This document shows positions 33,755 through 57,646 of a DNA stretch of 64,000 bases, one piece after another (the first letter of the stretch is position 1; each line of letters starts with the position of its first letter). Source of the stretch: Draconibacterium mangrovi. GTDB lineage: Bacteria; Bacteroidota; Bacteroidia; Bacteroidales; Prolixibacteraceae. The position numbers and the translations under genes are program-made. The DNA lies in assembly GCF_010586825.1 (NCBI RefSeq), contig NZ_JAAAGB010000014.1, positions 19,548 through 83,547 of the forward strand, read 5' to 3'. Below the pieces are notes generated by a model, which did not search any database, was not told the origin of the DNA, and worked only from the letters and a program-made list of their open reading frames with translations.

Positions 33755-33975
33755 CCTGCAGGTTTTATCGCCGTCCTGTTAGCTTTATGGGTGTCCTGTA
33801 GCACTTTTATGCTTTCCTGTTACTTTTTTTCTCGTCCTGTTACATTTTTGGTCGCCCTGTACCACTTTTTTACAATCCTGTTAGGTTTTTGGTCGTCCTG
33901 TTGGATAATCAGCTGTTCCTGTTTAACAGGGAGGGTAAAAAACCTTACAGGACGGGTGCAATCTTAACAGGACGC
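33755..33975. repeat. Phased 20-21-bp degenerate tandem array (array 1) with inverted boxes at its end
   Basis: CCTG boxes start at 33755, 33775, 33795, 33816, 33836, 33856, 33877, 33897 and 33918, giving intervals 20, 20, 21, 20, 20, 21, 20, 21. The common form is TCCTGTTA followed by a T-rich run. The array then inverts: AACAGG at about 33925, ACAGGAC at about 33947 and TAACAGGAC at about 33965. CCTGTT-T-AACAGG at 33918-33930 is a small hairpin. It lies between amt and valS. Units are contiguous with no spacers, so it is not CRISPR. It shares words with array 2 at 52022-52378. Confidence 0.85.
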
Positions 33976-44039: not shown

Positions 44040-46421
44040 ATGAGACATTTTATTCTTTCATTTTTTATTCTGTTTACTTTTTCAGGATTTTGCCAGGTAA
44101 GCCAACTTAATAAAAGTTCACTTTCGATCGAAACAATTATGCAGGATCCGGCCAAATGGATCGGTACTTCTCCGGACGATATAAGCTGGAGCGAAGATGG
44201 CGCAAAAATCTACTTTCAGTGGAATCCGGAGCAAGACACGCTCGAATCGTTGTTTGCTTACGATTTGGCGACCAAAGAAATAGAGAAAGTAAATTTGGAT
44301 GAAAAGAAGACATTACCCGGCCGTCGTGGCGATTACAACAGCGACAAAACAAATAAAGTATACACCCGAAACGGCAACCTCTTTCTGCTCGACTGTAAAA
44401 GCAGAGAAGAGAAACAGCTTACAGCCTGGCTGGAGCGTGTTTCGTCGCCCGAATTTGTTTTAGGCGATTCGAAAATAGCCTTTACTAAAGACAATAACCT
44501 TTTCACCATCGATCCGGAAACCGGGCTGATTACGCAGCTGACGAATTTTGTCTCGGGAAGTGAGAAAAAGGAACAGTCTTCGTCGGAGCAAGCCAAGTGG
44601 CTGGAGCAGCAACAAAAGGAATTGTTTGTGGTTTTACAGGAACGCGAAGCAAAAAATAAAGCACGCGAAAACCGCGGGGAGGCTGAAAAAGAAACCGAAC
44701 CATTAAAAATATATACCGGTAGCAAGTTTTTGAATGGCATTTCGCTGAGCCCGACCGGCGACTATATTATATACAGCTTGTACGAAAGGGCCTCTAATGC
44801 AAAAGCTACTTCGGTTACGCATCATGTTACCGAATCGGGGTACACCGAAGAAAAGAATGCCCGTTCTAAAGTAGGAAGCCCGCAGGCGTCGGTTGAAATG
44901 GGGATTTTTGATGTGAAGAACAATAAGCTGGTAACGATTGATAAAACACAAATTCCCGGCCTGAAAGATTTGCCTGATTACCTGAGCGATTACCCGGAAC
45001 GTATGCCAAAAGAGGGAGACGAGGTTGAAGACCGCGAAGTGAACCTGATGGGGCCGGTGTGGAATGAAACGGAAGACCTGGCGGTGGTTGTTGCGCTGTC
45101 GCATGACAATAAAGACCGCTGGATTTTACTGCTCGATCCTGCGACCGGTGATTTGGAATTACTCGATCGTCAGCGCGACGAAGCGTGGATTGGCGGCCCC
45201 GGAATTGGCGGCTGGGGAATGTCGACAGGAGATATAGGCTGGATGCCTGATGGTGAATCGGTGTGGTTTCATTCCGAGGAGTCGGGCTATTCACATTTGT
45301 ATGCCGTTAATTGCAAAACAAAAAAGAAAACAACGCTTACCAGCGGCGACTTTGAAGTTTCGGAAGCATCTATTTCGAACGATAAAAAAAGTTTTTATTT
45401 CATCGCCAACAAAGTGCACCCGGGTGTGACGCATTTCTACAAAATGCCGGTTTGGGGTGGTAAGCTAACACAGATCACATCGATGGAAGGTGGAAACGAA
45501 GTAACGCTTTCTCCTGATGAGAAATATCTGGCTATCCGTCATTCGGAGGCCAACAAACCCTGGGAACTTTATTTGCAGGAAAATAAAGCCGGAGCTGAAG
45601 CCGAAAAGCTGACAAATTCAACCACCGATGCTTTTAACAAATACAACTGGCGAATTCCTGAGTTCATTACTTTTAATGCTGCCGACGGTGCCGAAGTGCA
45701 TGCCCGTCTGTATCGCCCTGAGTCGCCGGAGCAAAATGGCCCCGCCGTAATTTTTGTGCACGGTGCCGGTTACCTGCAAAATGCGCACAAATGGTGGAGT
45801 AGCTATTTTCGGGAGTACCAATTCCACAATATTTTAGTCGACAATGGTTATACAGTACTGGATATCGATTACCGCGGAAGTGCCGGTTATGGCCGCGACT
45901 GGCGTACCGGAATCTACCGTTGGATGGGTGGCCTCGATCTGTCGGACCAGGTGGATGGTGCAAAATTGTTGACGGATAAATATGATGTTTCGCCGGAGCG
46001 AATTGGAATTTACGGAGGCTCATACGGAGGATTTATCACGCTGATGGCTTTGTTTAATGAGCCGGAAACTTTTACTGCCGGTGCAGCTTTGCGTTCAGTT
46101 ACCGACTGGGCACATTACAATCACGGTTATACTGCCAATATTCTGAATACACCGGTGCAGGACAGCATTGCCTATGCAAAAAGTTCACCTTTAAATTTTG
46201 CCGATGGACTGGAAGGTAACTTACTGATGTGCCATGGCATGGTTGATGACAATGTACAGTTTCAGGATATCGTTCGCCTTACGCAACGCCTTATCGAGCT
46301 GGGAAAAGAAAACTGGGAGCTGGCGGTTTATCCCGTGGAAGCGCATGGTTTTGTTGAACCCAGCAGTTGGACGGACGAATACAAACGTATTTTTAAACTG
46401 TTTGAAGAGAATCTGAAATAA
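44040..46421 (+). CDS. S9 family peptidase (prolyl oligopeptidase/DPP IV-like), secreted
   Basis: A signal peptide (MRHFILSFFILFTFSGFCQ) leads a 793-residue protein. The N-terminal two thirds form a beta-propeller with WD-like repeats (SPTGDYIIYSLYERASN; GGWGMSTGDIGWMPDGESVWFHS). The C-terminal alpha/beta-hydrolase domain has the nucleophile Ser661 in GGSYGGFITLMAL, the acid in HGMVDDNVQFQD and the histidine in VEAHGF. It would cut dipeptides or short peptides in the periplasm. It has no operon partner and ends at a strong terminator. Confidence 0.95.
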   Translation: MRHFILSFFILFTFSGFCQVSQLNKSSLSIETIMQDPAKWIGTSPDDISWSEDGAKIYFQWNPEQDTLESLFAYDLATKEIEKVNLDEKKTLPGRRGDYNSDKTNKVYTRNGNLFLLDCKSREEKQLTAWLERVSSPEFVLGDSKIAFTKDNNLFTIDPETGLITQLTNFVSGSEKKEQSSSEQAKWLEQQQKELFVVLQEREAKNKARENRGEAEKETEPLKIYTGSKFLNGISLSPTGDYIIYSLYERASNAKATSVTHHVTESGYTEEKNARSKVGSPQASVEMGIFDVKNNKLVTIDKTQIPGLKDLPDYLSDYPERMPKEGDEVEDREVNLMGPVWNETEDLAVVVALSHDNKDRWILLLDPATGDLELLDRQRDEAWIGGPGIGGWGMSTGDIGWMPDGESVWFHSEESGYSHLYAVNCKTKKKTTLTSGDFEVSEASISNDKKSFYFIANKVHPGVTHFYKMPVWGGKLTQITSMEGGNEVTLSPDEKYLAIRHSEANKPWELYLQENKAGAEAEKLTNSTTDAFNKYNWRIPEFITFNAADGAEVHARLYRPESPEQNGPAVIFVHGAGYLQNAHKWWSSYFREYQFHNILVDNGYTVLDIDYRGSAGYGRDWRTGIYRWMGGLDLSDQVDGAKLLTDKYDVSPERIGIYGGSYGGFITLMALFNEPETFTAGAALRSVTDWAHYNHGYTANILNTPVQDSIAYAKSSPLNFADGLEGNLLMCHGMVDDNVQFQDIVRLTQRLIELGKENWELAVYPVEAHGFVEPSSWTDEYKRIFKLFEENLK

Positions 46422-46430
46422 CACCATAGA

Positions 46431-46467
46431 AGCGGGAGCCTGACCTGAAATCAGGCTCCCGCTTTTG
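46431..46467 (+). terminator. Intrinsic terminator after the S9 peptidase
   Basis: A 13-bp perfect stem (AGCGGGAGCCTGA with TCAGGCTCCCGCT), 7-nt loop, followed by TTTT. Confidence 0.92.
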
Positions 46468-46531
46468 AAATAGTGAAAATTTGCCGAACATCTACTATCT
46501 GTTATTCGTTTAAATAGACGGAACATAAACA

Positions 46532-47554
46532 ATGGAGAGTAGATCGATGAATACCCGGCAGAAAGAAACATCCCCAAATAATCCCTGGCAAAACTTTATA
46601 AAAAATTCGGCTTCCTATCAAAAGCCTGATACCTTAAAAAGCGTATGGCAAATCATAAACACTTTTATTCCGTATGTTGGCGTATGGATATTGTTGGTTT
46701 ATAGTTTGTCGGTTTCGTTGTGGCTCACTGCATTTCTGCTCATTATTGCCGCCGGTTTACTGGTTCGTTTGTTTATAATCTTTCACGATTGCGGCCACGG
46801 CTCTTTCTTCAAATCATACAAAGCCAATCGGTATATCGGAATGTTGTTTGGTATTTTGGCTTTCACTCCCTTCGATAAATGGCACAGTTTACACGGGAAA
46901 CACCATGCTACTGTTGGTAATCTCGATAAACGTGGCGATGGCGATATCTGGACGATGACAAAGGAAGAATACCTGGCCAGTTCGAAAAAAAGGAGGCTTT
47001 ATTACCGGGTTTACAGGAATCCGGTAGTGATGTTTGGCTTTGGCTCGCTTTATATATTTCTTTTTCAAAACAGATTGACGAAAGTATGGATGACGCAAAA
47101 GCAGAAGAACAATGTTTATGTCACCAATATTGCGTTGGTTATCCTGTTTGCGGGAATGAGTGTTGCCATTGGTTTTTTCACCTATCTTATTCTTCAGCTG
47201 ATTATATTGTACCTGGCTGGCATGGCCGGACTGTGGTTGTTTTATCTGCAACATCAGTATGAAGACGTATCGTGGGTTCGGAGCGATGACTGGAACTACA
47301 CAAAACTGGCACTCGAAGGAAGTTCATTTGTCAAATTTCCAAAGTTGCTTCAATGGTTCTCCGGCAATATCGGTTTTCATCATATTCATCACATTAATGC
47401 GCGAATACCCAACTACAATTTACCAAAATGTTACGCCGAAAATAAAATTTTCAGAGAGGTGAAGCCGGTAACGTTTCGCTCAAGCCTCAAAACTTTGCGT
47501 TTACGTTTATGGGACGAAAAACTGCAGAAACTAATCGGATTTCAGGATATATAA
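46532..47554 (+). CDS. Fatty acid desaturase (membrane di-iron)
   Basis: The 340-residue membrane protein has the three histidine boxes of type 1 desaturases: HDCGHGSF, HGKHH in WHSLHGKHHATVG, and HHIHH in IGFHHIHHINARIPNYNL. Four membrane segments lie between them. It inserts a double bond into acyl chains and so tunes membrane fluidity. A second in-frame Met five codons on could also be the start. The small lipoprotein and DoxD-like genes follow on the same strand but with a promoter-like box of their own. Confidence 0.93.
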   Translation: MESRSMNTRQKETSPNNPWQNFIKNSASYQKPDTLKSVWQIINTFIPYVGVWILLVYSLSVSLWLTAFLLIIAAGLLVRLFIIFHDCGHGSFFKSYKANRYIGMLFGILAFTPFDKWHSLHGKHHATVGNLDKRGDGDIWTMTKEEYLASSKKRRLYYRVYRNPVVMFGFGSLYIFLFQNRLTKVWMTQKQKNNVYVTNIALVILFAGMSVAIGFFTYLILQLIILYLAGMAGLWLFYLQHQYEDVSWVRSDDWNYTKLALEGSSFVKFPKLLQWFSGNIGFHHIHHINARIPNYNLPKCYAENKIFREVKPVTFRSSLKTLRLRLWDEKLQKLIGFQDI

Positions 47555-47591
47555 CCGGGCAAGCCAGGCAGGGCACCAAACAATTTATACT

Positions 47592-47599
47592 TAGCTTTG
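47592..47599 (+). promoter_or_regulatory. Putative Bacteroidota -7 box
   Basis: TAGCTTTG, a TAnnTTTG match, lies 12 bp upstream of the small lipoprotein ATG at 47612. This is close, so the leader would be very short. Confidence 0.4.
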
Positions 47600-47611
47600 T
47601 TTTTGGAATTA

Positions 47612-47986
47612 ATGGATCGCATTCAACAATATTTTAGGTGGTTAAAACAGGCATTGCTGGTAGTAATTGCGTTGTTTTCGCTTGCATCGTGCTCGGTAAA
47701 AGAGCCGTTGTTTAAGGCCATTGGTGCCGAATATCAGCGTCCGTTAAATAAAACAAAAACCACCCCGAACTTCGATCATCACTGCCAAACTTCGCCCGAT
47801 GATTTTCGGATCAGCAGTAATTTTCACAACTCCGATCAGAATCTTTTAGGAACTGCAGTTGAGCGTGATGAGTTGCTTTTACAGTCAACATCTTTTTCTG
47901 AATATTCATTTCTGCAACCGGAAATTGTTGCAGAAAACACCCGGCTGTACATTCTCTATAAACGGTTAAAATTCGACATGGTGTAA
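47612..47986 (+). CDS. Small putative lipoprotein of unknown function
   Basis: I take the start at 47612 (MDRIQQYFRWLKQALLVVIAL), giving a lipoprotein signal with lipobox SLASC and a mature part of about 98 residues. The mature part is hydrophilic with no motif I recognise (NFDHHCQTSPDDFRISSNF holds two His and one Cys). It lies 57 bp before the DoxD-like gene, so co-transcription is likely and a role near that membrane protein can be guessed. Confidence 0.6.
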   Translation: MDRIQQYFRWLKQALLVVIALFSLASCSVKEPLFKAIGAEYQRPLNKTKTTPNFDHHCQTSPDDFRISSNFHNSDQNLLGTAVERDELLLQSTSFSEYSFLQPEIVAENTRLYILYKRLKFDMV

Positions 47987-48043
47987 TCGCTTTTCCCGTA
48001 CACCCAATATTGTCAATTTTAATAACCGTTAATACATTTTTAC

Positions 48044-49060
48044 ATGAATAAATCTGCGAATAATTCGGCAAACCTGGCCGGACTTTTCACCTTATCTCTC
48101 CGGCTGGTAGTTGGCTGGACTTACTTTTCTGCCTTTTGGCGCCGTGTTGTACTTGTTGATAAACTTGCTCCGGAAGGCGTTGGTTACATCGGCGAAAAAT
48201 TTAATCATTTCCTGCCCAACGCTTTGGGAATAAAACCGATAATCGAGCACCTGGTTACGCATCCCGAGCAGTTGTGGATGGCCATGGTAGTTTTTACTAT
48301 CGTTGAAGCTGTTGTCGGGCTGTTTATTATGCTGGGGCTTTTTACACGATTAATGAGCGTTGGCGTCTTTGGCCTCGCCGCCGGAATTCTGTTGGGCTCG
48401 GGTTGGATCGGAACAACCTGCCTCGATGAATGGCAAATCGGTGTGCTGGGAATTGCAGCCGGATTCACCCTGTTTTTTAGCGGCAGTGGCGCATATTCGC
48501 TCGATCAGTTGCTGCTGAATAAGAGACACAGCTTCACACAAAATCGTTGTTTTGTCTGGCTGGGATCGGGCGAACTTCCGATAAGAAATTTGAAGCCGGC
48601 TGTGTTTGTTGGCTCATTGGGAATTTTGTTTCTAACACTGTTTACCAACCAGGTTTTTCATGGCGGAGTTTATGGTAAACTGCACAACAAATCGGTGAAA
48701 CCTAAAATTGAAATCAGCGATGCCTCCATCGAAAACAATATCCTACAGTTTGAAATATACCGAACCGAAGGCGTTGATGTGTATGGATCGTTCCTGATCG
48801 GGATTCAATTGCTGGATTCGGAAGGAAATATTTTGCTCGAAAAAAAGGGAGAAGATCTGGCTAAGTTTCCGGTCGACCAAATATCCAATCACTATGTAAC
48901 GCACGTAAAACCGGGGAAACACAGTTTGATTGTTCCTTTGGGTGCAAAAGCCGATTTGGCTATTGACTTGCGCACAATTGATTTACAACGCGCAAATGAA
49001 TTCACGCTGAAACTGATTGATATTAGCGGACTGGAATGGGAAAGCAAAGTTAAAATCTAG
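48044..49060 (+). CDS. DoxD-DoxA-like membrane protein (TQO family)
   Basis: Residues 1 to about 165 form a DoxD/DoxX-like four-helix membrane domain, with GWIGTTCLDEWQIGVLG, a motif known from DoxD. Another membrane helix (LKPAVFVGSLGILFLTLFTNQ) leads to a soluble domain from about 215 to 338 (ISDASIENNILQFEIYRTEGVDVYGSF) that fits DoxA. In Acidianus DoxD and DoxA are the two subunits of thiosulfate:quinone oxidoreductase; here they are one polypeptide, as in other Bacteroidota. Actual substrate in this host is unproven. A 31-nt hairpin follows the stop. Confidence 0.85.
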   Translation: MNKSANNSANLAGLFTLSLRLVVGWTYFSAFWRRVVLVDKLAPEGVGYIGEKFNHFLPNALGIKPIIEHLVTHPEQLWMAMVVFTIVEAVVGLFIMLGLFTRLMSVGVFGLAAGILLGSGWIGTTCLDEWQIGVLGIAAGFTLFFSGSGAYSLDQLLLNKRHSFTQNRCFVWLGSGELPIRNLKPAVFVGSLGILFLTLFTNQVFHGGVYGKLHNKSVKPKIEISDASIENNILQFEIYRTEGVDVYGSFLIGIQLLDSEGNILLEKKGEDLAKFPVDQISNHYVTHVKPGKHSLIVPLGAKADLAIDLRTIDLQRANEFTLKLIDISGLEWESKVKI

Positions 49061-49074
49061 CCTGTTTTGGTGTA

Positions 49075-49105
49075 GTGATAGTATGACTCTAAGTCATGCT
49101 ATCAC
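49075..49105 (+). repeat. 31-nt hairpin element, copy 2 (3' of the DoxD-like gene)
   Basis: Same 14-bp stem and 3-nt loop as 36855-36885, same strand relative to the upstream gene, 15 bp after the stop. The third pair is G-C where copy 1 has C-G, and the loop differs by one base. Confidence 0.75.
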
Positions 49106-49154
49106 TGTTTAGCCTACATTTTTATTACTTTTAACACCAAGCAATCAAGTTACA

Positions 49155-50333
49155 ATGACCGAAAAATCTGTCTTTCACAATAAAAATCTCTATTTCATTT
49201 TTGGGGTAACGCTTATCGCTATGATGGGTGTGGCAAGCATTACACCCGCTTTCCCCGATATTATCCGTTATTTCGGTATCAGTCCGCAACAAGTGGGATG
49301 GCTGATTGTTGCCTTTACGCTGCCCGGTATTTTTCTTACGCCCTTTACCGGCATTTTGGCCGATCGTTATGGCCGGAAAGTGGTGTTGGTGCCCTCCTTG
49401 TTTCTCTTCGGAATTGCCGGTTTTGCCTGTATGTTTGCGCCCGGATTTTATTGGTTGCTGGCCCTTCGTTTTGTTCAGGGAGTTGGAGCCAGTTCATTAT
49501 CGAGTATGAATATTACCCTGGTGGGCGATCTTTTCGAAGGGAAACGACGCACGGCAGTAATGGGCTACAATGCCAGTGTGCTGAGTATTGCCACAGCATC
49601 GTACCCGGCACTTGGTGGTGTGATCGCTATTTTTGGCTGGCAGTATATTTTTGCTTTGCCCATTCTGGCTATTCCGCTGGGCATTTGGGTAATGAAAGGG
49701 CTGAATAACCCCGAGCCAAAGAACAAGGCGAAACTACGGTCGTATTTTGGGCGCGTTTGGAAAACCATTAACCAACGCACGGTTTGGGGACTTTTCGCCG
49801 TCAACTTTATCCTCTTCCTGATACTTTACGGTTCGTACCTTACCTACTTTCCGCTGATGATGGAAAAGCGCCTGGGCGCCGATTCTTCGCGCATTGGTTT
49901 AATGATGTCGCTGATGTCGGTAACTACCGCCATTATGAGCTCGCAACTGGCGCGCCTTAACCGCTTGCTGGGGCAAAAGCGGCAGCTGATTATTGGTAGC
50001 GCATTTTACATGCTCGCTTCGCTGCTTATGCTGGGTGCCAATTCGTATTTAATGTTGGGCGTGGCGGTCATCGTATTTGGTTTTGGGCATGGCATTACCA
50101 TTCCATCCATTCAAAATATGCTGGTAGGCTATGCGGCAATAAACGAGCGGGCAGCTTTTATGTCGCTAAACTCCATGGTGCTGCGTGGCGGGCAAACCTT
50201 TGGCCCCTTGCTGGTAGGCGTGTTTTATGCACTTGGCGGCCTGGAAGCCAGTTTCCTGTCGGGCGCAGTTATGGCTGTGTTTATGATGATCATCATTTTT
50301 GCTATGGTGCATGTGAAAAAGCAACGTGGTTGA
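49155..50333 (+). CDS. Major facilitator superfamily transporter
   Basis: The 392-residue protein has about twelve membrane helices and the MFS motif A in the first cytosolic loop (GILADRYGRKVVLVPSL). The layout of two six-helix halves is clear, with a basic central loop (NNPEPKNKAKLRSYFGR). It resembles drug:H+ antiporter-like MFS proteins, but the substrate is not readable. It is the last gene before the repeat-rich island. Confidence 0.9.
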   Translation: MTEKSVFHNKNLYFIFGVTLIAMMGVASITPAFPDIIRYFGISPQQVGWLIVAFTLPGIFLTPFTGILADRYGRKVVLVPSLFLFGIAGFACMFAPGFYWLLALRFVQGVGASSLSSMNITLVGDLFEGKRRTAVMGYNASVLSIATASYPALGGVIAIFGWQYIFALPILAIPLGIWVMKGLNNPEPKNKAKLRSYFGRVWKTINQRTVWGLFAVNFILFLILYGSYLTYFPLMMEKRLGADSSRIGLMMSLMSVTTAIMSSQLARLNRLLGQKRQLIIGSAFYMLASLLMLGANSYLMLGVAVIVFGFGHGITIPSIQNMLVGYAAINERAAFMSLNSMVLRGGQTFGPLLVGVFYALGGLEASFLSGAVMAVFMMIIIFAMVHVKKQRG

Positions 50334-50585
50334 ACCCACAAACTCATCCATTAAACAATCCAAACCTTTTTCCACTGGCCAATGACTAATTCCCTCTTTA
50401 CCGGCAGCCGGGCTTTCCGCTAAAGTTGCCACACCTTTTGCCGGTTCCACCACAGGCATTTGGGTAGCTCCCTCTGGTCGCTCCCAATAGCCTGGTGTCA
50501 CAAAGCAAAAGCTGCGGCAAGCTACCGCTGCAATCCCTGCCGGGGGCCTGTGGCGCTGATTGGGGGCAATTGTTTTTTGCTATTG
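50334..50585. other. Left flank of the repeat-rich island, no gene seen
   Basis: About 250 bp after the MFS stop shows no gene-like frame. It carries fragments related to dispersed intergenic repeats (for example CCAATGACTAATTCCC, similar to 53500-53545). Confidence 0.5.
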
Positions 50586-50970
50586 CACCGTGGCTTTAGC
50601 CCGGTGATAAAATTGCAGTTCCGCAAAAGGGCTTTAGCCATTAATATCCTTTTAAAGGCTAAAACCTGTGGGCTATGATCCTATCTAAAATCACCGCCCT
50701 AAAGGACGGTGCAAAACATTCGCTACCGTGCCCCCGAAGTTTCGGGGCTTCGCGTGGCTTTCATGAAGGGCAGAAGAGAATCTTAAGCTCTTTCAGAGCG
50801 ATGAGTGAATTCGCTTAAATACACAGGGTGTTACCCTGTGTTGTTGCTTTAGCACCGTTGGTGCTGCTTACAAGGCAACTGTATTTTTAAATAGCCCAAA
50901 GGGCTATAAGCATTAGCACAGGGCAGCGCCCTGTGCTATAAAATAAATTTAAACATCGCCCTGAAAGGGC
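50586..50970. repeat. Cluster of short palindromes with mostly 3-nt loops (left of the DUF6261 gene)
   Basis: Hairpins in order: CACCG/CGGTG with GGC/GCC inside (50586-50606); CACCG-C-CC/GGACGGTG (50692-50711); CCCCGAA/TTCGGGG (about 50733-50748); ACACAGGG/CCCTGTGT (50821-50841); AGCACC-GTT-GGTGCT (50851-50865); ATAGCCC-AAA-GGGCTAT (50891-50907); an 11-bp perfect stem with loop AGC (50914-50938); GCCCT-GAA-AGGGC (50958-50970). They follow each other with short spacers. No RAYT or other transposase gene is in the window. This looks like a REP/BIME-type cluster. Confidence 0.85.
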
Positions 50971-51026
50971 AGTAGTATTTCCTCACTTCGCTACCGTGCG
51001 AATCCTTTCGGGGGCTAAGCTCAGCA

Positions 51027-51058
51027 AAAAAGCACCCAACACAACGGAAGGATGCTTT
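51027..51058 (-). terminator. Terminator after the DUF6261-like gene
   Basis: AAAGCA pairs with TGCTTT and CC with GG, with one mismatch, and the A-run on the plus strand gives a T-run on the minus transcript. It is about 30 bp after the stop. Confidence 0.7.
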
Positions 51059-51084
51059 CTGATACACATACACGGTTTTTGTTT

Positions 51085-51837
51085 TTATTCTTCCACGGTA
51101 GCTTCAGCCGATTCTTCTTCTCCGCTGGCAGATTGCCCCTGACGGGCGGCAAGCTGAATCTCAAGATTTGTAATCTTCTGATTTACCTCTAATATAAAAT
51201 TTTCGATTTCGGGAGTTGCCATGCGTAAAGTAACCAGGGCATTAATACGGTTTACCAATGCCTTGTATACCCCTTCGAAAGCCAAACGCACCTCTTTTAC
51301 CTTAGCTGAGTTAAGATTTGCTTTTTCGCTGTCGCGTTGGTTTTGCAGATCGTTAACGGTATTGTTTTCGGTTTCGTGCGCCAAAACCCACGGCATAATA
51401 CCAATGGTTTGGCAATGCACTGCCATATCCCGGTCTTTCAGGTCGTTATTCAGGTTGGTTGCTGCTGCAGTTTGTTCCTTCAACGACAGGTATCTGATGT
51501 TTCCATACAGATTAAAAACCCGTTCGATGTGTTTGGCAGCCTCAACTTCTTCTGGTATTGGGCTAAAAAGCGTAGCTTTTACCCGCTCGTTTAGTGCAGT
51601 CCAGGTAGTATCGCGCCTGTGGTCGGCATCCTGAACTTTTTCGGTCAGTACACTTCCCCGGTCAACATTTATTGCTTCGTCGAGTTCGGTAAAACTATTG
51701 TTGAAGTCTACCGATTCTTCCTCCACATTAAGTGCTGCAGGGGTGGCCTGCGCAATCAAACTTTTTACATCAGCCATAAACTGAAAGTAATCGTTGTTGC
51801 GCAAGCGCGTTAAAGGGATTGATTTTATAAAATTCAT
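51085..51837 (-). CDS. DUF6261-like protein of unknown function
   Basis: The 250-residue protein is predicted mostly helical and cytosolic, with no signal peptide or membrane helix. Its start (MNFIKSIPLTRLRNNDYFQFM) and overall length match my memory of the Bacteroidota-only DUF6261 family; this is recall, not a search. Central helices are rich in Asn, Lys and Glu (NLNNDLKDRDMAVHCQTIGIMPWVLAHE), and the C-terminus is an acidic tail (GEEESAEATVEE). No catalytic motif is seen. Its context is striking: a 184-bp leader, then a 357-bp array of 21-bp units directly upstream, and palindrome clusters on both sides. I infer a functional link to the array. A terminator follows the gene. Confidence 0.75.
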   Translation of the reverse strand: MNFIKSIPLTRLRNNDYFQFMADVKSLIAQATPAALNVEEESVDFNNSFTELDEAINVDRGSVLTEKVQDADHRRDTTWTALNERVKATLFSPIPEEVEAAKHIERVFNLYGNIRYLSLKEQTAAATNLNNDLKDRDMAVHCQTIGIMPWVLAHETENNTVNDLQNQRDSEKANLNSAKVKEVRLAFEGVYKALVNRINALVTLRMATPEIENFILEVNQKITNLEIQLAARQGQSASGEEESAEATVEE

Positions 51838-52021
51838 AATAGTTAAAATTTAAGAATGTATGGGTGTATGTGTATTTTGTTGATTATTTGGTGTGTGCAT
51901 GGTGCTTATTAATGTGTAAAGTTCTTGCAAATTAGAACATAAGCTTACCAAAGTCAATAGTAGAGCTTGTGTTGTTTAGCATAAGCATTAAATTGACAAC
52001 TAAACAATTAGCGTTGAAGAA
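51838..52021. other. Leader between the array and the DUF6261-like gene
   Basis: A 184-bp AT-rich stretch. On the minus strand a near-match to the -7 box (TAATTTG, one base short) lies at 51928-51934. If used, the gene would be transcribed independently of the array. Confidence 0.35.
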
Positions 52022-52378
52022 CGATGGTTTGCCGTTAGGGTTTTTAGTCCTGTTGTTCGATTTTGACAGGCCCGGAGTGATGGCTAAAGTCCCATTGCAA
52101 GGCAACGACAGCAGTAAATTGGTGACTAAACCCTCTTTGTACAGCTACGAAAGGGGTTTAATGCCCACTAAAGTACTGTTGCAGCACTACGAAAGTAGTT
52201 TTGTGATGACAAAAGTGCCGTTGTAGCACTACGAAAGGACTTTTGTGAAGACGGAGAAGCTTTCAAACACCTACGAAAGCACTAAATTGAATAATTTGAC
52301 GGTAGCAAAGCGATACGAAACGACCAAATTGGTGACTTTGAAGCTTTCGCAGGGATGCGAAAACACCAAATTAGTGGC
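52022..52378. repeat. Seventeen contiguous 21-bp degenerate units (array 2) with a 42-bp A/B super-period
   Basis: I tiled 52022-52378 by hand into 17 units of exactly 21 bp with no insertions or deletions. Odd units (A type) tend to start CGAAAG and end GGTGAC or GATGAC; even units (B type) tend to start TAAAG or TTTGA and end CACTA or CGATA. Neighbouring same-type units share about half to three quarters of their bases. Because 21 is divisible by 3, a plus-strand frame shows a 14-residue periodic peptide (YES/YET at each A start, KLVT later) from 51969, broken by one TAG at 52224 and ending at a TAA near 52392. It is not CRISPR: there are no unique spacers. It lies immediately upstream of the DUF6261-like gene. 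Confidence 0.9.
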
Positions 52379-52439
52379 GGGGGAGTTCTTGTAATCAGTT
52401 AGTTAGGTGGTTTTGTGTTGTCGTAGTCTTTCGGAAACC

Positions 52440-52604
52440 CGCCTACACCAAGGCTTAAGGGCTAAAGCCCGGTGCCGATGGGCTTTGCTTAACCCCGGGC
52501 TACCCCTCGTTTGTAACGAGGGGTAAAATCTCCTGGCATTTATAATGCCATTCATAAGGTCGTTACAAACGACAAAACAAGAACCCCTCGTTGCAAACGA
52601 GGGG
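52440..52604. repeat. Second cluster of palindromes (right of the array)
   Basis: GGGCTAAAGCCCGGTG-type repeats at about 52468-52500 are followed by ACCCCTCGTT-TGT-AACGAGGGGT (52502-52524), TGGCATT-TAT-AATGCCA (52534-52550), GTCGT/ACGAC (52559-52573) and CCCCTCGTT-GCA-AACGAGGGG (52584-52604). The first and last stems are the same sequence with different loops. The GGCTTTAGCCC word is shared with the left cluster at 50592-50602. Confidence 0.85.
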
Positions 52605-52805
52605 CAGAAGAGCTATTTCTAAACCGCTGTTGTTTTATTTTTTTATTATGCTAACTTTAAACTCCGAATAAAAACCAAAATGCTTTGAATACCTGCCCAC
52701 AAATAATAAAGTAAATAATAAACACTCGAACAATCCAATTTATTCGATTCAGGCGAATTCCTATTTCACATGTAATGTTATTTCAATGAATTAAATACTA
52801 AAATT
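52605..52805. other. AT-rich region before the beta-barrel gene
   Basis: About 200 bp with no gene-like frame and no clear TAnnTTTG box. Confidence 0.4.
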
Positions 52806-53417
52806 ATGAAAAAGACACTTGTACTAATTGCCGTCTTGATAATTGGCGGAGCCAATGTTTTTGCACAAACACAAAAGGGAGATTTTTTATTAGGAGCTGG
52901 AACAAGTCTAGATTTTAGCTTCTTAAGCAGTCAGGTTTCAACAGACAGCTATGAAACTGATAAAGTAAAAAACAACAGTTTTGAATTCATGCCACGCATT
53001 GGTTATTTCCTAGCTAACAATTTGGTTGTCGGTATTGATTTTTTAACTTCAACTGCAACGGAAAAAGATGATGGAGATAAATATAAATCAAGCACATTTG
53101 CTGTTGGTCCTTTTGCCCGGGTGTATTTGGGTAATACTACAGTAAAACCTTTTTTTCATGCTGGTTTAGGTTTTGGAAAAAATACGGAAGAATACAATTC
53201 TTCATATGCTGGTTATCCTGACAACGAAGTAAAGTCTAATCTTACAACTTATGATGTGGGAGGCGGAGTTAGTTTTTTCCTGACACCTAAAGTAGCATTA
53301 GAAGTAGGTATATCCTATGGAAATGCCAGCTCGAAGTTTACGAACTATTATAACGAAGATGCAACGAATAAGGTGAAGGGGATCGCTTCAAGTATTGGCT
53401 TTTCAATTCACTTATGA
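52806..53417 (+). CDS. Outer membrane beta-barrel protein
   Basis: A signal peptide (MKKTLVLIAVLIIGGANVFAQ) leads a 203-residue protein with alternating hydrophobic strands typical of the OmpA/OmpW-like porin family: FEFMPRIGYFLANNLVVGIDFL, FAVGPFARVYLGNTTVKPFFHAGLGFG, YDVGGGVSFFLTPKVALEVGISYG. The C-terminal strand ends in an aromatic-rich GFSIHL, near the usual barrel assembly signal. An eight-strand barrel fits its length. The role is not known; such small barrels are abundant and often stress-induced. Confidence 0.9.
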   Translation: MKKTLVLIAVLIIGGANVFAQTQKGDFLLGAGTSLDFSFLSSQVSTDSYETDKVKNNSFEFMPRIGYFLANNLVVGIDFLTSTATEKDDGDKYKSSTFAVGPFARVYLGNTTVKPFFHAGLGFGKNTEEYNSSYAGYPDNEVKSNLTTYDVGGGVSFFLTPKVALEVGISYGNASSKFTNYYNEDATNKVKGIASSIGFSIHL

Positions 53418-53442
53418 ACACTCGCTGTCGCGCGAATAATAT

Positions 53443-53492
53443 AAAAGGATCCGATCTGTATCTACGTTAATTTATACAGATTGGATCCTTTT
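53443..53492 (+). terminator. Long hairpin terminator after the beta-barrel gene
   Basis: AAAAGGATCC pairs with GGATCCTTTT, with ATCTGTAT/ATACAGAT pairing inside, giving a stem of about 18 pairs with one mismatch. Confidence 0.88.
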
Positions 53493-53499
53493 CATAATG

Positions 53500-53545
53500 T
53501 CAAATGACGAATGGCTAATGACCAATGACCAATGACCAGTGACGA
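53500..53545. repeat. Short 7-bp tandem repeat
   Basis: ATGACCA is repeated three times in a row with flanking variants (ATGACGA, ATGGCTA, GTGACGA). It is just downstream of the queuosine-precursor transporter stop. Confidence 0.6.
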
Positions 53546-53551
53546 ACCTGT

Positions 53552-54256
53552 CTATTCCATCCAAAAGCGGTTGCGTTTGTGAATCTTTTTACTCCAGTAT
53601 ACAAACGGTGTATCGGCGGCTGCAACAATCCATTTCAGGAAATAAGTGGTAAGCAGAATTTCAATCAACACCGGCCATTCGTAAACGCCCCAAAAGGCAA
53701 TGGCAACAAATACCACGCTGTCTATTAGTTGCGAAACCATTGTACTGAGGTTGTTACGCAGCCAGATCTGGTGGTCTTTCGAAAAACGTTTTTTCCAGAA
53801 ATGATAAGCCCAAACATCATGGCGCTGCGACAATAGATAAGCTGCTAAACTGGCAATGGCAATACGCGGCATCAGGCTAAAAATCGTGCTGGTAGCTTCA
53901 TGGCTTATTCCTGCAAATTCGTCACCTTCCAGTGGCAGAAATTCCAGTGCCAGGTTCATCAGCAAAGTCATTGATATCAAACTGAAGAATCCGATCCATA
54001 CAGCTTTTTTCGCTTCCTCCTTTCCGTAGTTCTCCGACAGAATATCGGTAACCAAAAACGATGTGGCGTAAACTATGTTACCAAGCGTAGCAACCAGCCC
54101 AAACAACTCAACGGTTTGTATTACCTGAATGTTGGCCACAATTACCGAGATGGGAATCCACATTACAAGTCCCCATTTACCGAATAAACGGTAGGCTAAA
54201 ATAATTAGCAGAAAATTTGCCAGCAACATGGCCAGCCATAAGATTTCGTTTTGCAT
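53552..54256 (-). CDS. Queuosine precursor transporter (YhhQ/VUT family)
   Basis: The 234-residue membrane protein shows the VUT family pattern, including LGNIVYATSFLVTDILSENYGKEEAKKAV and the late segment STMVSQLIDSVVFVAIAFWGV, with about six to seven helices. It imports preQ0 or preQ1, the base used to make queuosine in tRNA. The leader forms a preQ1-I-like aptamer right at the start codon, which strongly supports this function and the start at 54256. It stands alone in the window; no queuosine synthesis genes are present. Confidence 0.93.
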   Translation of the reverse strand: MQNEILWLAMLLANFLLIILAYRLFGKWGLVMWIPISVIVANIQVIQTVELFGLVATLGNIVYATSFLVTDILSENYGKEEAKKAVWIGFFSLISMTLLMNLALEFLPLEGDEFAGISHEATSTIFSLMPRIAIASLAAYLLSQRHDVWAYHFWKKRFSKDHQIWLRNNLSTMVSQLIDSVVFVAIAFWGVYEWPVLIEILLTTYFLKWIVAAADTPFVYWSKKIHKRNRFWME

Positions 54257-54293
54257 TTTTTTTATTTTTAAAGTGCAGGGTTATGCCACCTGC
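54257..54293 (-). promoter_or_regulatory. preQ1-I-like riboswitch aptamer
   Basis: On the minus strand, GCAGG at 54293-54289 pairs with CCTGC (54279-54275), enclosing the loop TGGCATAAC, followed by an A-rich tail directly before the ATG at 54256. The order (stem, loop with GGCATAA, CCC, stem, A-rich tail) is close to the known Thermoanaerobacter preQ1-I aptamer. The A-rich tail would pack into the stem when preQ1 binds and block ribosome loading, so control is likely translational. Its place before a queuosine-precursor transporter supports the call. Confidence 0.7.
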
Positions 54294-54360
54294 TCAATTA
54301 ATACTCAAAATTTTGGCCTGCAAATGTAATGGAAAAAGCTGAAAGTCAAAAAGCAAGAAT

Positions 54361-54493
54361 ATACCCCTTTGGCTGTAGCCATTTCCCCTCAAGAGGGAAA
54401 CAGCTGCAAAGCAATGCCGGAGATTTTGAATATCGCTAAAATTGATCAGCGCTAGCTCCCCTCCTGAGGGGAGCTCCCGACAGGGTGAGGGGT
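54361..54493. repeat. Palindromic intergenic repeats related to 17681-17750
   Basis: TTCCCCTC/GAGGGAA with a short loop at about 54383-54400, and CTCCCCTC/GAGGGGAG at about 54458-54475. Same base vocabulary as the 17.7-kb repeat. The 332-bp gap holds no gene-like frame. Confidence 0.65.
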
Positions 54494-54522
54494 AATGTAA
54501 ATAGTGAGTGTGTCGGAGAAAG

Positions 54523-54555
54523 ATGCGCTAAGCGGTTCTAAACCGCTTAGCGCAT
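54523..54555. terminator. Strong hairpin 3' of the GHL10-like gene
   Basis: A 14-bp perfect stem (ATGCGCTAAGCGGT with ACCGCTTAGCGCAT) and a 5-nt loop. T-rich sequence follows on the plus strand, which is the wrong strand for the GHL10-like gene; there it may act as a transcript-end stabiliser. Confidence 0.75.
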
Positions 54556-54588
54556 TTCTTTGGGCAGAACCCAATTCTTCTATGTCTC

Positions 54589-55662
54589 TTATTTAGAAGC
54601 CTTCTTCAATATCCCCAAAGTCTTTTCATCGATCTTCCCAAACAACGAAACTCCTGATGCACCATTGGCAATGGCTACACGAATTCCTTCTTCCAGCTCT
54701 TCATCCGATTTAAAATCGGGCAGGAACAGACCGGCATAAATCGGGAATTTCCCGCAAAGGAAATGCATGCCTTCCTCAACAGCATCGCCAATCCAGCTTA
54801 CTGTTTCGCGGTAGAAACCGTGGTAGATCATCGGGCAAACCGCATCAAGGTTCCAGTTCGTCCAGTCCTGACGCACAATGCGGCGCGCAATTTCCGGTGT
54901 TGGGAAAACCGCTGCAGTTATGGGTTTATTATAAGAATGCGTTATTTCGGCCAGGTGATTTACAATACCATTCACCTGCTCGTATCGGTATTTCCGCCAT
55001 GCCGGACTCTGATCGGGATGTTCCATTTCCAGCGGATCCTTACCGGTTTTCTTTTTAAAATTCTCGCGGCAGGTTTCGCAATAACAGAAATCGTACTCGG
55101 GCAACTCTTTGCTTTGGTCAATGCCGTAATTATCCCACAGGTTTACCGGCAGAATTACGTCGCAGTAACGTACATAATCCAGGTGTAGGCCATCAACATA
55201 ATCCTTTTCCAGAATTTCTTTTGAGCGTTGAGCCAGGTATTCTTTAACCTCAGGCTTTGATGGGCACAACCAACGGTAATATCCAACGTATGGAGGATTG
55301 TCAGCACACGATTTTCCATCGCGGCTAACGGCATACCATTCCGGGTGACTGGCAAGCAGCTCTTTTTCGCCACGGTTCATGGTCCACATCCAACGGTGTG
55401 TTTCCAGCCCGGCCTTTTTTGCTATCCGAAAGTGGCGTTCGCTGTCGTGCTCGAAAAACATACCGCGCACACCGGCTTCGTAATAACTACTGTATTTCTT
55501 TTGCAGGTCTTCGTCGCTCTCCTCATGATTTGGGTTTTCCCATACCCAGTGTTTCAATCCTTGTTCAGCCGCTGCCGGTTTTGCTTCGCCGGCACAGGCG
55601 CTTGCTACGGTAAGGCCCATTCCGGCCAACATTGTGGTTTTAATAAAATCTCTTTTGTTCAT
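54589..55662 (-). CDS. Putative secreted glycoside hydrolase (GHL10/DUF187-like)
   Basis: A lipoprotein-type signal (MNKRDFIKTTMLAGMGLTVASAC) leads a 357-residue TIM-barrel-like protein. The strand motif DGLHLDYVRYCD is the hallmark of the DUF187/GHL10 glycosidase-like group, with the Asp as candidate catalytic residue. A CxxC pair (CYCETCRENF) may bind metal. The family acts on polysaccharides or peptidoglycan in some members. It lies 11 bp downstream of a CBM9-like secreted protein, so the two form a small carbohydrate-processing operon. Confidence 0.85.
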   Translation of the reverse strand: MNKRDFIKTTMLAGMGLTVASACAGEAKPAAAEQGLKHWVWENPNHEESDEDLQKKYSSYYEAGVRGMFFEHDSERHFRIAKKAGLETHRWMWTMNRGEKELLASHPEWYAVSRDGKSCADNPPYVGYYRWLCPSKPEVKEYLAQRSKEILEKDYVDGLHLDYVRYCDVILPVNLWDNYGIDQSKELPEYDFCYCETCRENFKKKTGKDPLEMEHPDQSPAWRKYRYEQVNGIVNHLAEITHSYNKPITAAVFPTPEIARRIVRQDWTNWNLDAVCPMIYHGFYRETVSWIGDAVEEGMHFLCGKFPIYAGLFLPDFKSDEELEEGIRVAIANGASGVSLFGKIDEKTLGILKKASK

Positions 55663-55673
55663 CGTTAGTTTGT

Positions 55674-56783
55674 TTATTTGTCAGTATGTATGCGTAATAA
55701 GCCATCCTGATCGATAGAGATCATCAGGTTGTTGTTGGTTGTTAAGGTTGCAGTATAAGTATTTCCCGAGGTATTTAATTCCAGCGAGAAACTGGTGTCG
55801 TTTTCTTTTCCGCTTGATTGAATTCCAAGTTCAGAAAGGTCATCGCAATAGACCTTATTCTCGCGTTGATAGTCGTGTTGCGCATAAAACACATGCCACA
55901 GGTGGCGGGCCATTAATTCCGCTTCCGGAAGTGGAAAAGAAGCATGTGTTGATTTCGGAGCATCAGACGAAAACTGAATAAGCCCCCAACGTTCGGGGTA
56001 GTGCATATTTATCACTCCCTGCGGACTCCAGACCCAATTGTCTTCAGGGATCAATTTACCATTGTCGTTTGTTTTTCGCGTGTATTTCCCGTTAACAATT
56101 TCAGTTTGCCACTGCACGCGCGAGAAGTTGATTTTCCAAATAGCACCGGCTTCAGGCTGTATATAGTTGCCAACAGTGGTAAGCGATGAAAATGGAATGG
56201 CCATCTCAACGCACCATTTTTTATCCTTGTCGGTCGGGTTGTTCAACGTTCCATCCAGATAAACAGCACTTTTAAACCCTTTGGCATTCCATTCAATATC
56301 GGCTTTCCCTCCATTACGATAAGGTTTATCAAGAAAAAGGTCGAACAACGTGTTTTGGGCGTTCACTTCAAACTCGTAATAGTTGTGCGTGTCGCCATCG
56401 GGATCGATAAACACCTCAAAATCATTTTCGTGGTAAACGATCATGTCCTGCTTATCGTAGTAGGCCCAGATATTTTCTTCTTTCAGTTCGGCAAAAATGT
56501 ACAGGTTATCTATATCCCACAACATTTTAATCCGCGTAGGGTAAGTGGGGTGAGGCATATTCGCGCCCTGAATATCAATAAACTCAGAAGTCCATGCAGC
56601 ATTTTCCCATGACGGCTCGTTGGCTTGTCCGTCAATCGTAATGGCAGTGTTACTTTGTCCTGCAATATAGGTGTTTGGAGCTGTAAACAGGCGGGCATAC
56701 TTCTCCGGTACCTCTTGCGCCGATGAGCCCAGGTTGCTGATTATAAAAAGTGTGATGAGGAAGGCATTCCTGATAATTCGCAT
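55674..56783 (-). CDS. Secreted CBM9-like carbohydrate-binding protein
   Basis: A signal peptide (MRIIRNAFLITLFIISNLGSSAQ) leads a 369-residue protein whose central part is a CBM9-like beta sandwich: ITIDGQANEPSWENAAWT, TRIKMLWDIDNLYIFAELKEENIWA, ENDFEVFIDPDGDTHNYYEFEVNA and WCVEMAIPFSSL. These domains bind sugar chain ends; some stand-alone family members are surface lectins. Position before the GHL10-like gene suggests joint action on one glycan. No TonB receptor is linked. Confidence 0.88.
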   Translation of the reverse strand: MRIIRNAFLITLFIISNLGSSAQEVPEKYARLFTAPNTYIAGQSNTAITIDGQANEPSWENAAWTSEFIDIQGANMPHPTYPTRIKMLWDIDNLYIFAELKEENIWAYYDKQDMIVYHENDFEVFIDPDGDTHNYYEFEVNAQNTLFDLFLDKPYRNGGKADIEWNAKGFKSAVYLDGTLNNPTDKDKKWCVEMAIPFSSLTTVGNYIQPEAGAIWKINFSRVQWQTEIVNGKYTRKTNDNGKLIPEDNWVWSPQGVINMHYPERWGLIQFSSDAPKSTHASFPLPEAELMARHLWHVFYAQHDYQRENKVYCDDLSELGIQSSGKENDTSFSLELNTSGNTYTATLTTNNNLMISIDQDGLLRIHTDK

Positions 56784-56875
56784 AGATTAATCACTATTTA
56801 TGTCGGACAATAACGACAAAAATATTGAAAAAATTATCAAGAATGCCTGGTCTTTTTAAAAAAATTAAGAAAGGT

Positions 56876-57349
56876 TTATGCCATATTCACGTCGCGGGCA
56901 ATATATTCGCGATAATCTTTTATAATCGGGTCGTATTGCTCGTGAAATAATTCGGATGTCACCATAAAGTCGGCCGTAGAACGGTTTGAAGCTGTTGGAA
57001 TATTGTACAAAACCGTAATACGCAACAAGGCTTTTACGTCAACATCATGCGGTTGCGGTTGCATCGGATCCCAAAAGAAGATGAGCATATCGATGTTGCC
57101 TTCGCAAATCATTGCTCCCAACTGCTGGTCGCCACCCAGTGGCCCCGATTTCAGGCGGGTAACGGTTGGAGGCACGGTGCCATGTTTGTGACAGCTTTCT
57201 GCAAGTGCCTCTTCAACCATTTTTCCTGTTGTTCCGGTACAAATTAAGTCGTGTTGGGCCAGTTCTTTCCAGTTGAAAGACACCCATTCCATAATATCTT
57301 TTTTGCGGTTATCGTGTGCTACGATCGCTATATTCTTTTTTCTTTTCAT
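56876..57349 (-). CDS. mgsA: Methylglyoxal synthase
   Basis: The 157-residue protein has the MgsA fold: NIAIVAHDNRKKDIMEW at the start, TGTTGKMVEEAL for phosphate binding, SGPLGGDQQLGAMI with the catalytic Asp, and FFWDPMQPQPHDVDVKALLR. It turns dihydroxyacetone phosphate into methylglyoxal and phosphate, a bypass used when phosphate is scarce or sugar phosphates pile up. A 9-bp inverted repeat upstream may be an operator. Length matches the family. Confidence 0.96.
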   Translation of the reverse strand: MKRKKNIAIVAHDNRKKDIMEWVSFNWKELAQHDLICTGTTGKMVEEALAESCHKHGTVPPTVTRLKSGPLGGDQQLGAMICEGNIDMLIFFWDPMQPQPHDVDVKALLRITVLYNIPTASNRSTADFMVTSELFHEQYDPIIKDYREYIARDVNMA

Positions 57350-57362
57350 TATTCATGTTTTG

Positions 57363-57388
57363 TATTCAGTAAACTATTGTACTGAATA
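57363..57388. promoter_or_regulatory. Perfect 9-bp inverted repeat upstream of mgsA (possible operator)
   Basis: TATTCAGTA pairs with TACTGAATA around an 8-nt spacer, 14 bp upstream of the mgsA ATG. The spacing of the half-sites is one that a dimeric regulator could use. No regulator gene is next to it. Confidence 0.5.
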
Positions 57389-57511
57389 TTGTTTTCGGTT
57401 CAAATGTAGATCGTTTTTAAATAAGGGAATAGTTAAAACATGTTTTATAACATAAATTTAGCTAAAACTTAATTTCTACACCCAACACCAAAGGATTGCT
57501 TAACATTTGAG

Positions 57512-57629
57512 TAATACCGATGTGAAATCAGAATGAGCCTTATCTCATACAATTTCCGTTTTCAATCGGTATTAACCATTGTAATTCCAGTGTTTCACTT
57601 AAGGCTCACACTGAAAAACAATTGGTATA
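57512..57629 (-). repeat. 118-bp twin-hairpin dispersed repeat, copy B
   Basis: The reverse complement of this segment aligns without gaps to 42419-42536 (22 mismatches in 118). It lies between glmM and mgsA. Left arm ACCAATTGT...ACAATGGT and right arm TTAATACCGAT...ATCGGTATTA each fold back on themselves. Confidence 0.85.
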
Positions 57630-57646
57630 ACCTTCTGTAATGCCAA

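Follow-up and report, generated by a model that had tools for sequence, protein, structure and literature searches.

Several known systems come close to the one described here. REP/BIME elements and RAYT (REPtron) combine families of dispersed palindromes, one copy beside the gene, with fast sequence turnover, and REP elements occur as many single elements. Type III toxin–antitoxin systems (ToxIN, CptIN and TenpIN) carry tandem repeats directly upstream of one gene, with units of about 36–48 bp. The centromere-like sopC site of the F plasmid consists of 43-bp palindrome-bearing repeats bound by SopB, and CRISPR loci also contain regular palindromic repeats.

The locus described here lies in a 64,000-nucleotide stretch of the Draconibacterium mangrovi genome, the whole of which is called the window, and it consists of a tandem array upstream of a DUF6261 gene. 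With REP/RAYT it shares dispersed intergenic palindromic repeats (11 dispersed arrays in the source genome). It differs in that the partner is DUF6261 and not a Y1 (Y1/HUH) transposase, in its strict 41/42-bp tandem phasing and in having few arrays per family. The upstream position recalls type III toxin–antitoxin systems, whereas DUF6261 has no toxin homology that we could find, its array families are dispersed without the gene, and the wobble counts give no hint of RNA structure on one strand. The arrays resemble sopC in that palindrome-bearing units, each about four helical turns long, are repeated in tandem beside the gene of a putative binder. However, these arrays are chromosomal, with many paralogous sets per genome, there is no ParB match in Pfam, and binding is a prediction. 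Unlike in CRISPR, the whole 42-bp unit repeats, without unique spacers, and no cas-like open reading frame (ORF) was recognized by eye among the ORFs of window positions 46000–58000. No system known to us from the literature unites these components. In layout it is similar to REP/RAYT or to a centromere-like array, its mechanism being a proposal. The gene that defines REP/RAYT is lacking, and a centromere-like role is an analogy.

The window array and its gene

The features of the locus are collected in Table 1. The array had been described in an earlier note as 17 contiguous 21-mers of two alternating types with no change in length, and this tiling was reproduced, as were the 184 bases between the array and the start codon of the minus-strand gene. 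The 21-bp repeat unit, by contrast, was not borne out. Autocorrelation identity is 0.594 at a shift of 42, 0.524 at 84 and at chance level (0.253) at 21, the highest value in 1,000 shuffles at any shift from 15 to 63 being 0.352; TRF also gives a period of 42. The period is thus 42 bp and a 21-bp direct repeat is ruled out; because identity peaks at 42 and not at 21, the two types of 21-mer (A and B) are not copies of each other. By symmetry, a 41–42-bp quasi-palindrome would have two dyad axes per unit, 20.5–21 bp apart, and this half-period spacing is probably the source of the 21-bp impression. By eye, the repeat is cleanest from about 52085 onward and the first three 21-mers are poor. On the minus strand, the core of the window family is CTTTCGTA-N4-TACGAAAG.

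Table 1. Features of the locus, in window coordinates
Feature	Position	Strand	Evidence
DUF6261 (PF19775) gene, 250 aa	51085..51837	-	Pfam, AlphaFold2 model, pI
Possible DUF6261 promoter, TTGAC ... TAATTTG, between array and gene	51925..51959	-	By eye; weak
Array of about eight 42-bp units, quasi-palindromic	52022..52378	.	Autocorrelation, TRF, dyads in window and dispersed relatives
Conserved 'head' at gene-distal end of array (...CACCTAACTnACTGATTACAAGAgCTCCCC)	52380..52470	-	Motif scan and homology

A reading frame, which the earlier note had offered as one constraint on spacing, is contradicted by stops in all six frames of the window array. Among 20 arrays examined, the window's included, 13 have stops in all six frames, and coding was rejected; the seven that are open in at least one frame (L007, L011, L014, L018, L019, L020 and L022) show, by eye, no constant strand or frame and no common peptide.

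A scan of 120 loci placed the head motif close to the distal end of the array in 16, two of which (L074 and L076) look like chance; the window's own copy fell outside the range of that scan and was seen separately. The head stands at 14 other gene-linked arrays of the window subfamily, whose units are in some cases unrelated, and also at L166 and L168, two dispersed arrays that lack DUF6261; homology between the window and L168 extends to about 52464. Another dispersed palindromic element, around GGGCTTTAGCCC / GGCTTTAGCCCGGTG, occurs in the window at 50561–50716 and 52459–52470. The copy at 50561–50716 has a 78% match over 157 bp adjoining L168, and the element's motif precedes the head of several arrays.

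The neighbouring gene, which the earlier note had called DUF6261-like, does encode a member of that family: its product matches PF19775 with 119.2 bits (cut-off 27, E = 2e-34), the sole family above the Pfam cut-off. AlphaFold2 models of the window protein (ten helices; mean pLDDT 91, pTM 0.60) and of the L053 protein (nine or ten helices; mean pLDDT 92, pTM 0.58) agree in being all-helical and strandless. A fold search with these two models returned no convincing match and no recognized DNA-binding fold, and no related solved sequence was found. NCBIfam, PADLOC and PHROGs gave no strong match for four members. The DUF6261 proteins scanned matched no transposase or other recombinase (Pfam, NCBIfam, PADLOC and PHROGs); no ToxN/AbiQ-type endoribonuclease was matched, either by the window protein in Pfam or by four members in NCBIfam and PADLOC, nor was ParB by the window protein (Pfam). 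The window protein is acidic (pI 4.8), as are members on average (mean pI 5.5, range 4.5–9.1, 57 sequences). A literature search that excluded most subscription papers yielded one apparently incidental mention of DUF6261, no paper devoted to the family, no mention of PF19775 and, for comparable arrays, papers on REP at most.

Promoter-like sequence at a spot similar to that in the window was seen in L005, L007 and L013, and TAGTTTTG, also promoter-like, precedes the array in L053 and L088. In a sigma-70 scan, promoter matches were no commoner than in shuffles, and motifs of the Bacteroidota −7 consensus showed no clear enrichment (13 in 17,595 bases ahead of arrays, 11 in 28,837 inside and 11 in 19,951 behind them). 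A fixed promoter distance is excluded by the spread of array-to-start-codon distances, from 2 to about 450 bp (643 at one locus without a real array).

Gene–array linkage across Bacteroidota

The D. mangrovi genome contains six DUF6261 genes, each preceded by an array whose period is 40–42 bp or twice that. Named genomes supplied 19 further loci; others came from 140 genomes belonging to its taxonomic family, 75 of which contain DUF6261, and from 392 genomes across the phylum, of which 12 gave a match (11 above the cut-off). The set comprised 19 + 57 loci and 60 more from among the places listed in the 140-genome search, 136 in all; removal of 14 duplicates left 122, and 120 with at least 500 bp upstream were testable. 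Genera seen include Draconibacterium, Maribellus, Sunxiuqinia, Prevotella and Parabacteroides. An array was scored where the best periodicity over 126 bp reached at least 0.5 identity in an open search of periods 15–99.

At this threshold, 106 of the 120 loci have an upstream array, with best periods of 42 (56 arrays), 41 (37), 40 (1) or double, 81–85 (12), and with no others. Eight further loci fall below threshold yet have their best period within 40–43 or 80–86. The remaining six show no hint of an array; among them, L069 is below the Pfam cut-off, and L029 and L037 probably have a misplaced start codon. In one-kilobase control windows, 3 of 121 reach 0.5, with periods of 61, 16 and 16. Downstream flanks reach it once in 69 (period 16), and in ten of the 69 the best period is in range with identity below 0.5, about chance level. 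Outside the taxonomic family, 15 of 21 loci are at threshold. The loci are related, so that such fractions do not count independent events, and array starts depend on taking the first ATG in the longest open frame, a choice that fails at some loci (L029, L037, L062 and L068 among them). Of 795 unit spacings, 670 are exactly 41 or 42, in a segmentation that searched within 3 bp of periods 40–44 and is thus biased towards these values. Records labelled as plasmids also carry the pair, with a 41-bp array (0.69) in Prevotella nigrescens and a double period of 83 (0.52) in Parabacteroides distasonis; two phage-labelled faecal contigs with DUF6261 have periods of 83 (0.60) and 23 (0.54).

The association is thus a general one. 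The contrary outcome named in the earlier note, in which most genes lack an array or unit lengths vary freely, is not what was found, and its choice of DUF6261 as candidate partner is supported: given linkage in 106 of 120 loci, DUF6261 is the right partner to suspect.

Unit sequence varies from locus to locus while the period stays constant. Between proteins less than 50% identical, the similarity of unit consensuses is at chance (mean 0.41–0.44). Similarity of at least 0.62 is reached by 24% of 41 pairs at 70–79% protein identity, by 69% of 42 pairs at 80–89% and by 77% of 13 pairs above that. A locus and its nearest protein relative have the same period in 85 of 103 cases. The proteins of L087 and L109 are 90% identical and their unit consensuses unrelated; their upstream flanks are alike at 87% over 283 bp, after which the units differ, and by eye the edge units still resemble each other. 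From this comparison, units may be replaced by expansion of different (edge) unit types.

Dispersed arrays and dyad symmetry

Four of the six gene-linked families in the source genome were tested for dispersal (L056 and L057 lie outside this set), and all four have further arrays without DUF6261: four for the window family, two for L053, three for L058 and two for L055. Each of these 11 arrays matches one gene-linked family, with no cross-match above noise; the arrays were found with their own family as the probe, namely the window or L055 array, the L053 dyad or the L058 dyad pair, and it is the absence of cross-matches that is informative. In 5.9 Mb there are 12 copies of the L053 dyad, TTTCCG-N6-CGGAAA, all of them within three arrays at spacings of 42 bp or a multiple, and the reversed control pattern does not occur at all; just one of these arrays adjoins a DUF6261 gene. 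In the stretches fetched, DUF6261 is encoded at none of 20 dispersed loci scanned (11 from the source genome and 9 from others). Six of nine dispersed sites in the source genome are free of ORFs of at least 90 aa, one overlaps the last 5 bp at an ORF end, and L167 and L168 lie mostly within putative ORFs, of 155 and 228 aa respectively. The earlier note, which proposed two parts, had missed this dispersal; because the array families are spread through the genome, the system has more than two.

The neighbours of dispersed arrays are ordinary genes, such as those for a Mut7-C RNase, a GH43 enzyme and a TIR-domain protein. A conserved neighbour gene was rejected as a candidate, the scanned genes being mutually unrelated. 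In L168 (1477–2205), a window-family array lies 396 bp upstream of a TIR/SEFIR-domain gene.

Dispersed arrays are also found in other genomes. One stands beside the same 401-aa ORF, by eye a uracil permease, in four genomes (G000, G040, G042 and G035). Between G000 and G040, its arms are identical at 48 of 48 positions, its centres at 16 of 24, its linkers at 64 of 72 and its flanks at 188 of 216. Some units of the G035 copy read TTTCCC...GGGAAA, a compensated change, and a gene-linked array of the same family in G035 (L048) has TTTCCCA...TGGGAAA instead of TTTCCG. The gene-linked pair L053/L088, with arms identical at 60 of 60 positions, says little, because the remainder matches nearly as closely (27/30, 134/138 and 95/102).

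Among the 140 genomes, a pair of TTTC-N10-GAAA dyads at a distance of 42 bp is present in 23 of the 75 that have DUF6261 and in 2 of the 65 that lack it (Fisher p = 1.2e-5), counts that take in gene-linked arrays. At least two such hits occur in 12 of 75 against 0 of 65, and forward hits sum to 124 against 2; the small genome G059 (2.2 Mb) accounts for 50 of the hits. In 10 of the 140 genomes the reversed control pattern scores once, so that single hits are partly chance. This dyad pattern is absent from 52 of the 75 DUF6261 genomes, as would be expected if each family used a dyad of its own. Array L193, gene-linked in G059, shares TTTCC(T/C)C dyads with the dispersed arrays L194 and L195; the other three gene-linked arrays fetched share none with dispersed arrays. 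G059 is unusually rich in paired-dyad arrays of several arm types (for example, L194, L195, L197 and L199), and L194–L199 lie outside the set scanned for DUF6261. The array of L083, in another genome, has no second copy there, and G042 and G051 have TTTCCG arrays yet no L053 relative at E ≤ 1e-30.

Dyad symmetry is common among the arrays. Of 108 arrays, 77 have a circular dyad score above that of column shuffles (p < 0.05) and 47 a best stem above it, with 60 shuffles per array that do not model descent; the 108 exclude arrays of under four units and those whose units were poorly alike. Watson–Crick pairs between the arms of a unit number 3,904, compared with 3,733 ± 23 when arms are shuffled between units; by axis, 90 of 148 go up and 34 down. 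Using a pattern that fixes TTTC and GAAA alone, we collected 87 distinct sites, a sample from 51 of the forward places listed with overlapping neighbours omitted. The three inner pairs are Watson–Crick in 82, 71 and 54 of these sites (shuffled means 40, 35 and 28), all four pair types are present in the first two, and pairing of the central four bases is not above shuffles. Mismatches over the three inner pairs are 14 G.T, 13 A.C and 27 other, of 261, on the genome strand and thus uninformative on strand preference.

DUF6261 as candidate binder and the alternatives

Linkage of gene and array, a constant period, dyad symmetry, a non-coding array, dispersed kin and arms preserved at one site are observed. 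To account for them we predict, at a confidence just short of even, that DUF6261 binds its upstream array and the matching dispersed arrays as its own DNA sites. The cassette would comprise the DUF6261 gene and an upstream array of 41–42-bp dyads about four helical turns apart. DUF6261 itself would be the binder, probably as a dimer or as a chain along one face of the DNA. The array beside the gene may let the protein set its own level, and scattered arrays may be its places of action, most likely chromosome-organizing or regulatory sites. An array family of its own would stay with every paralogue, block-copied between places, with the sequence drifting and the spacing held. Four-turn spacing, preserved arms, a free centre, the lack of a wobble preference and dispersed copies are together what would be expected of duplex-DNA sites for a symmetric protein or chain.

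For the array families seen, the one linked gene is DUF6261, and the prediction draws on this linkage and on the matched dispersed sites, not on the looks of the protein. Several findings count against it. The models are helical bundles without a recognized DNA-binding fold, and members are on average acidic. Some proteins 80–90% identical have unrelated units (L087/L109), which is odd for a reader of sequence, an objection eased by the like units of most pairs at least 80% identical. At threshold, 14 of 120 loci are arrayless, and the L083 array is single-copy. TTTCCG arrays occur in G042 and G051 without an L053 relative, and in G059 sharing was seen in one case of four. Finally, the variable array–gene distance is unlike that of a classical operator.

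A stronger form of the binding proposal, towards which we lean less, is a system of private addresses. Every paralogue would own a family of four-turn-phased dyad arrays, one beside the gene and others scattered. These would be block-copied and quickly renewed in sequence with spacing and symmetry kept, giving up to 14 sets per chromosome; it is a tentative extension. A protein family of no known function acquires a partner that can be tested, and a likely owner emerges for dispersed repeats matching no Rfam family at threshold. If the binding prediction is right, each of these Bacteroidota genomes contains several DNA-address systems in parallel, under a strict mechanical constraint of about four helical turns but with almost free sequence. 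This would be a natural case of binding specificity changing together with its many sites, and a handle on chromosome organization in these bacteria.

A less likely alternative is that the arrays are REP/MITE-like, non-autonomous mobile DNA spreading as blocks. Block copying would then hold the period, and DUF6261 would be an accessory that recognizes or tames the arrays, much as RAYT accompanies REP. Blocks do recur without common flanks: the L058 array and C21:167k are 94% identical over 223 bp, with homology stopping near the array, and the arrays C25 and C21:256k are 89% identical over 418 bp. In the window subfamily the homology continues through the head, a conserved element at one end, and the unrelated neighbours and fast unit turnover are also in keeping with mobility. 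Against it stand the lack of any transposase or recombinase match among the DUF6261 proteins scanned and the array kept beside the same ORF in four genomes with its dyads preserved. Moreover, one account of REP (PMC3733652) describes singletons, dimers and clusters, not a strict 41/42-bp phase. Mobile arrays and a DUF6261 binder share most predictions, and both may be true together.

Less probable still is a reading in which transcription of the array yields tandem RNA hairpins to which DUF6261 binds, on the model of type III toxin–antitoxin systems. The layout is that of toxI–toxN, with tandem repeats just upstream of one gene (compare PMC8860590 and PMC4627078). Best stems with four-base loops occur in 17 arrays against 1.3 in shuffles, arm changes compensate within units, the third inner pair of the 87 sites has more G.T (12) than A.C (6), and the promoter-like sequence ahead of the L053 and L088 arrays would suit transcription. 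However, loops of 0–2 bases, on which a hairpin cannot close as such, are found in the best stems of 39 arrays (7.7 in shuffles). On the gene-sense strand neither G.T (400 against 429 expected) nor A.C (434 against 454) is in excess, whereas an RNA hairpin under selection should tolerate G.U on the transcribed strand. An earlier version of the count was alike (690 against 721 and 756 against 778), and wobble preference is absent on the complementary strand too. The case against RNA rests on these gene-strand counts, because the inner-pair sites carry no array or gene strand. Since the arms covary without wobble preference, duplex DNA is favoured over RNA, and structured RNA, another of the earlier note's constraints on spacing, is unsupported on present evidence. 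Arrays also exist without the gene, and no toxin family was matched (Pfam, NCBIfam and PADLOC). Rfam at permissive settings gave eight matches at E ≤ 1 in 16 loci, none at the gathering score. Downstream of the L058 DUF6261 gene (2552–2613), a sub-threshold match to whalefall-1 RNA scores 33 bits against a gathering score of 37.

Tandem repeats arise by slippage and unequal crossing-over, and homogeneous cores with divergent edges would suit a roleless satellite that happens to grow in these intergenic regions. Such a satellite is made very improbable by the phylum-wide linkage to a single gene family, by the narrow class of periods, by dyad symmetry and by the arms preserved at a dispersed site.

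Two other tandem repeats were found in the window by TRF. A 61-bp repeat of 2.1 copies with a 20-bp subperiod lies at 33772–33902, and the 7-bp repeat AATGACC, in about six copies with a 21-bp superperiod, lies at 53495–53543, directly past the 3′ end of the minus-strand gene at 53552–54256.
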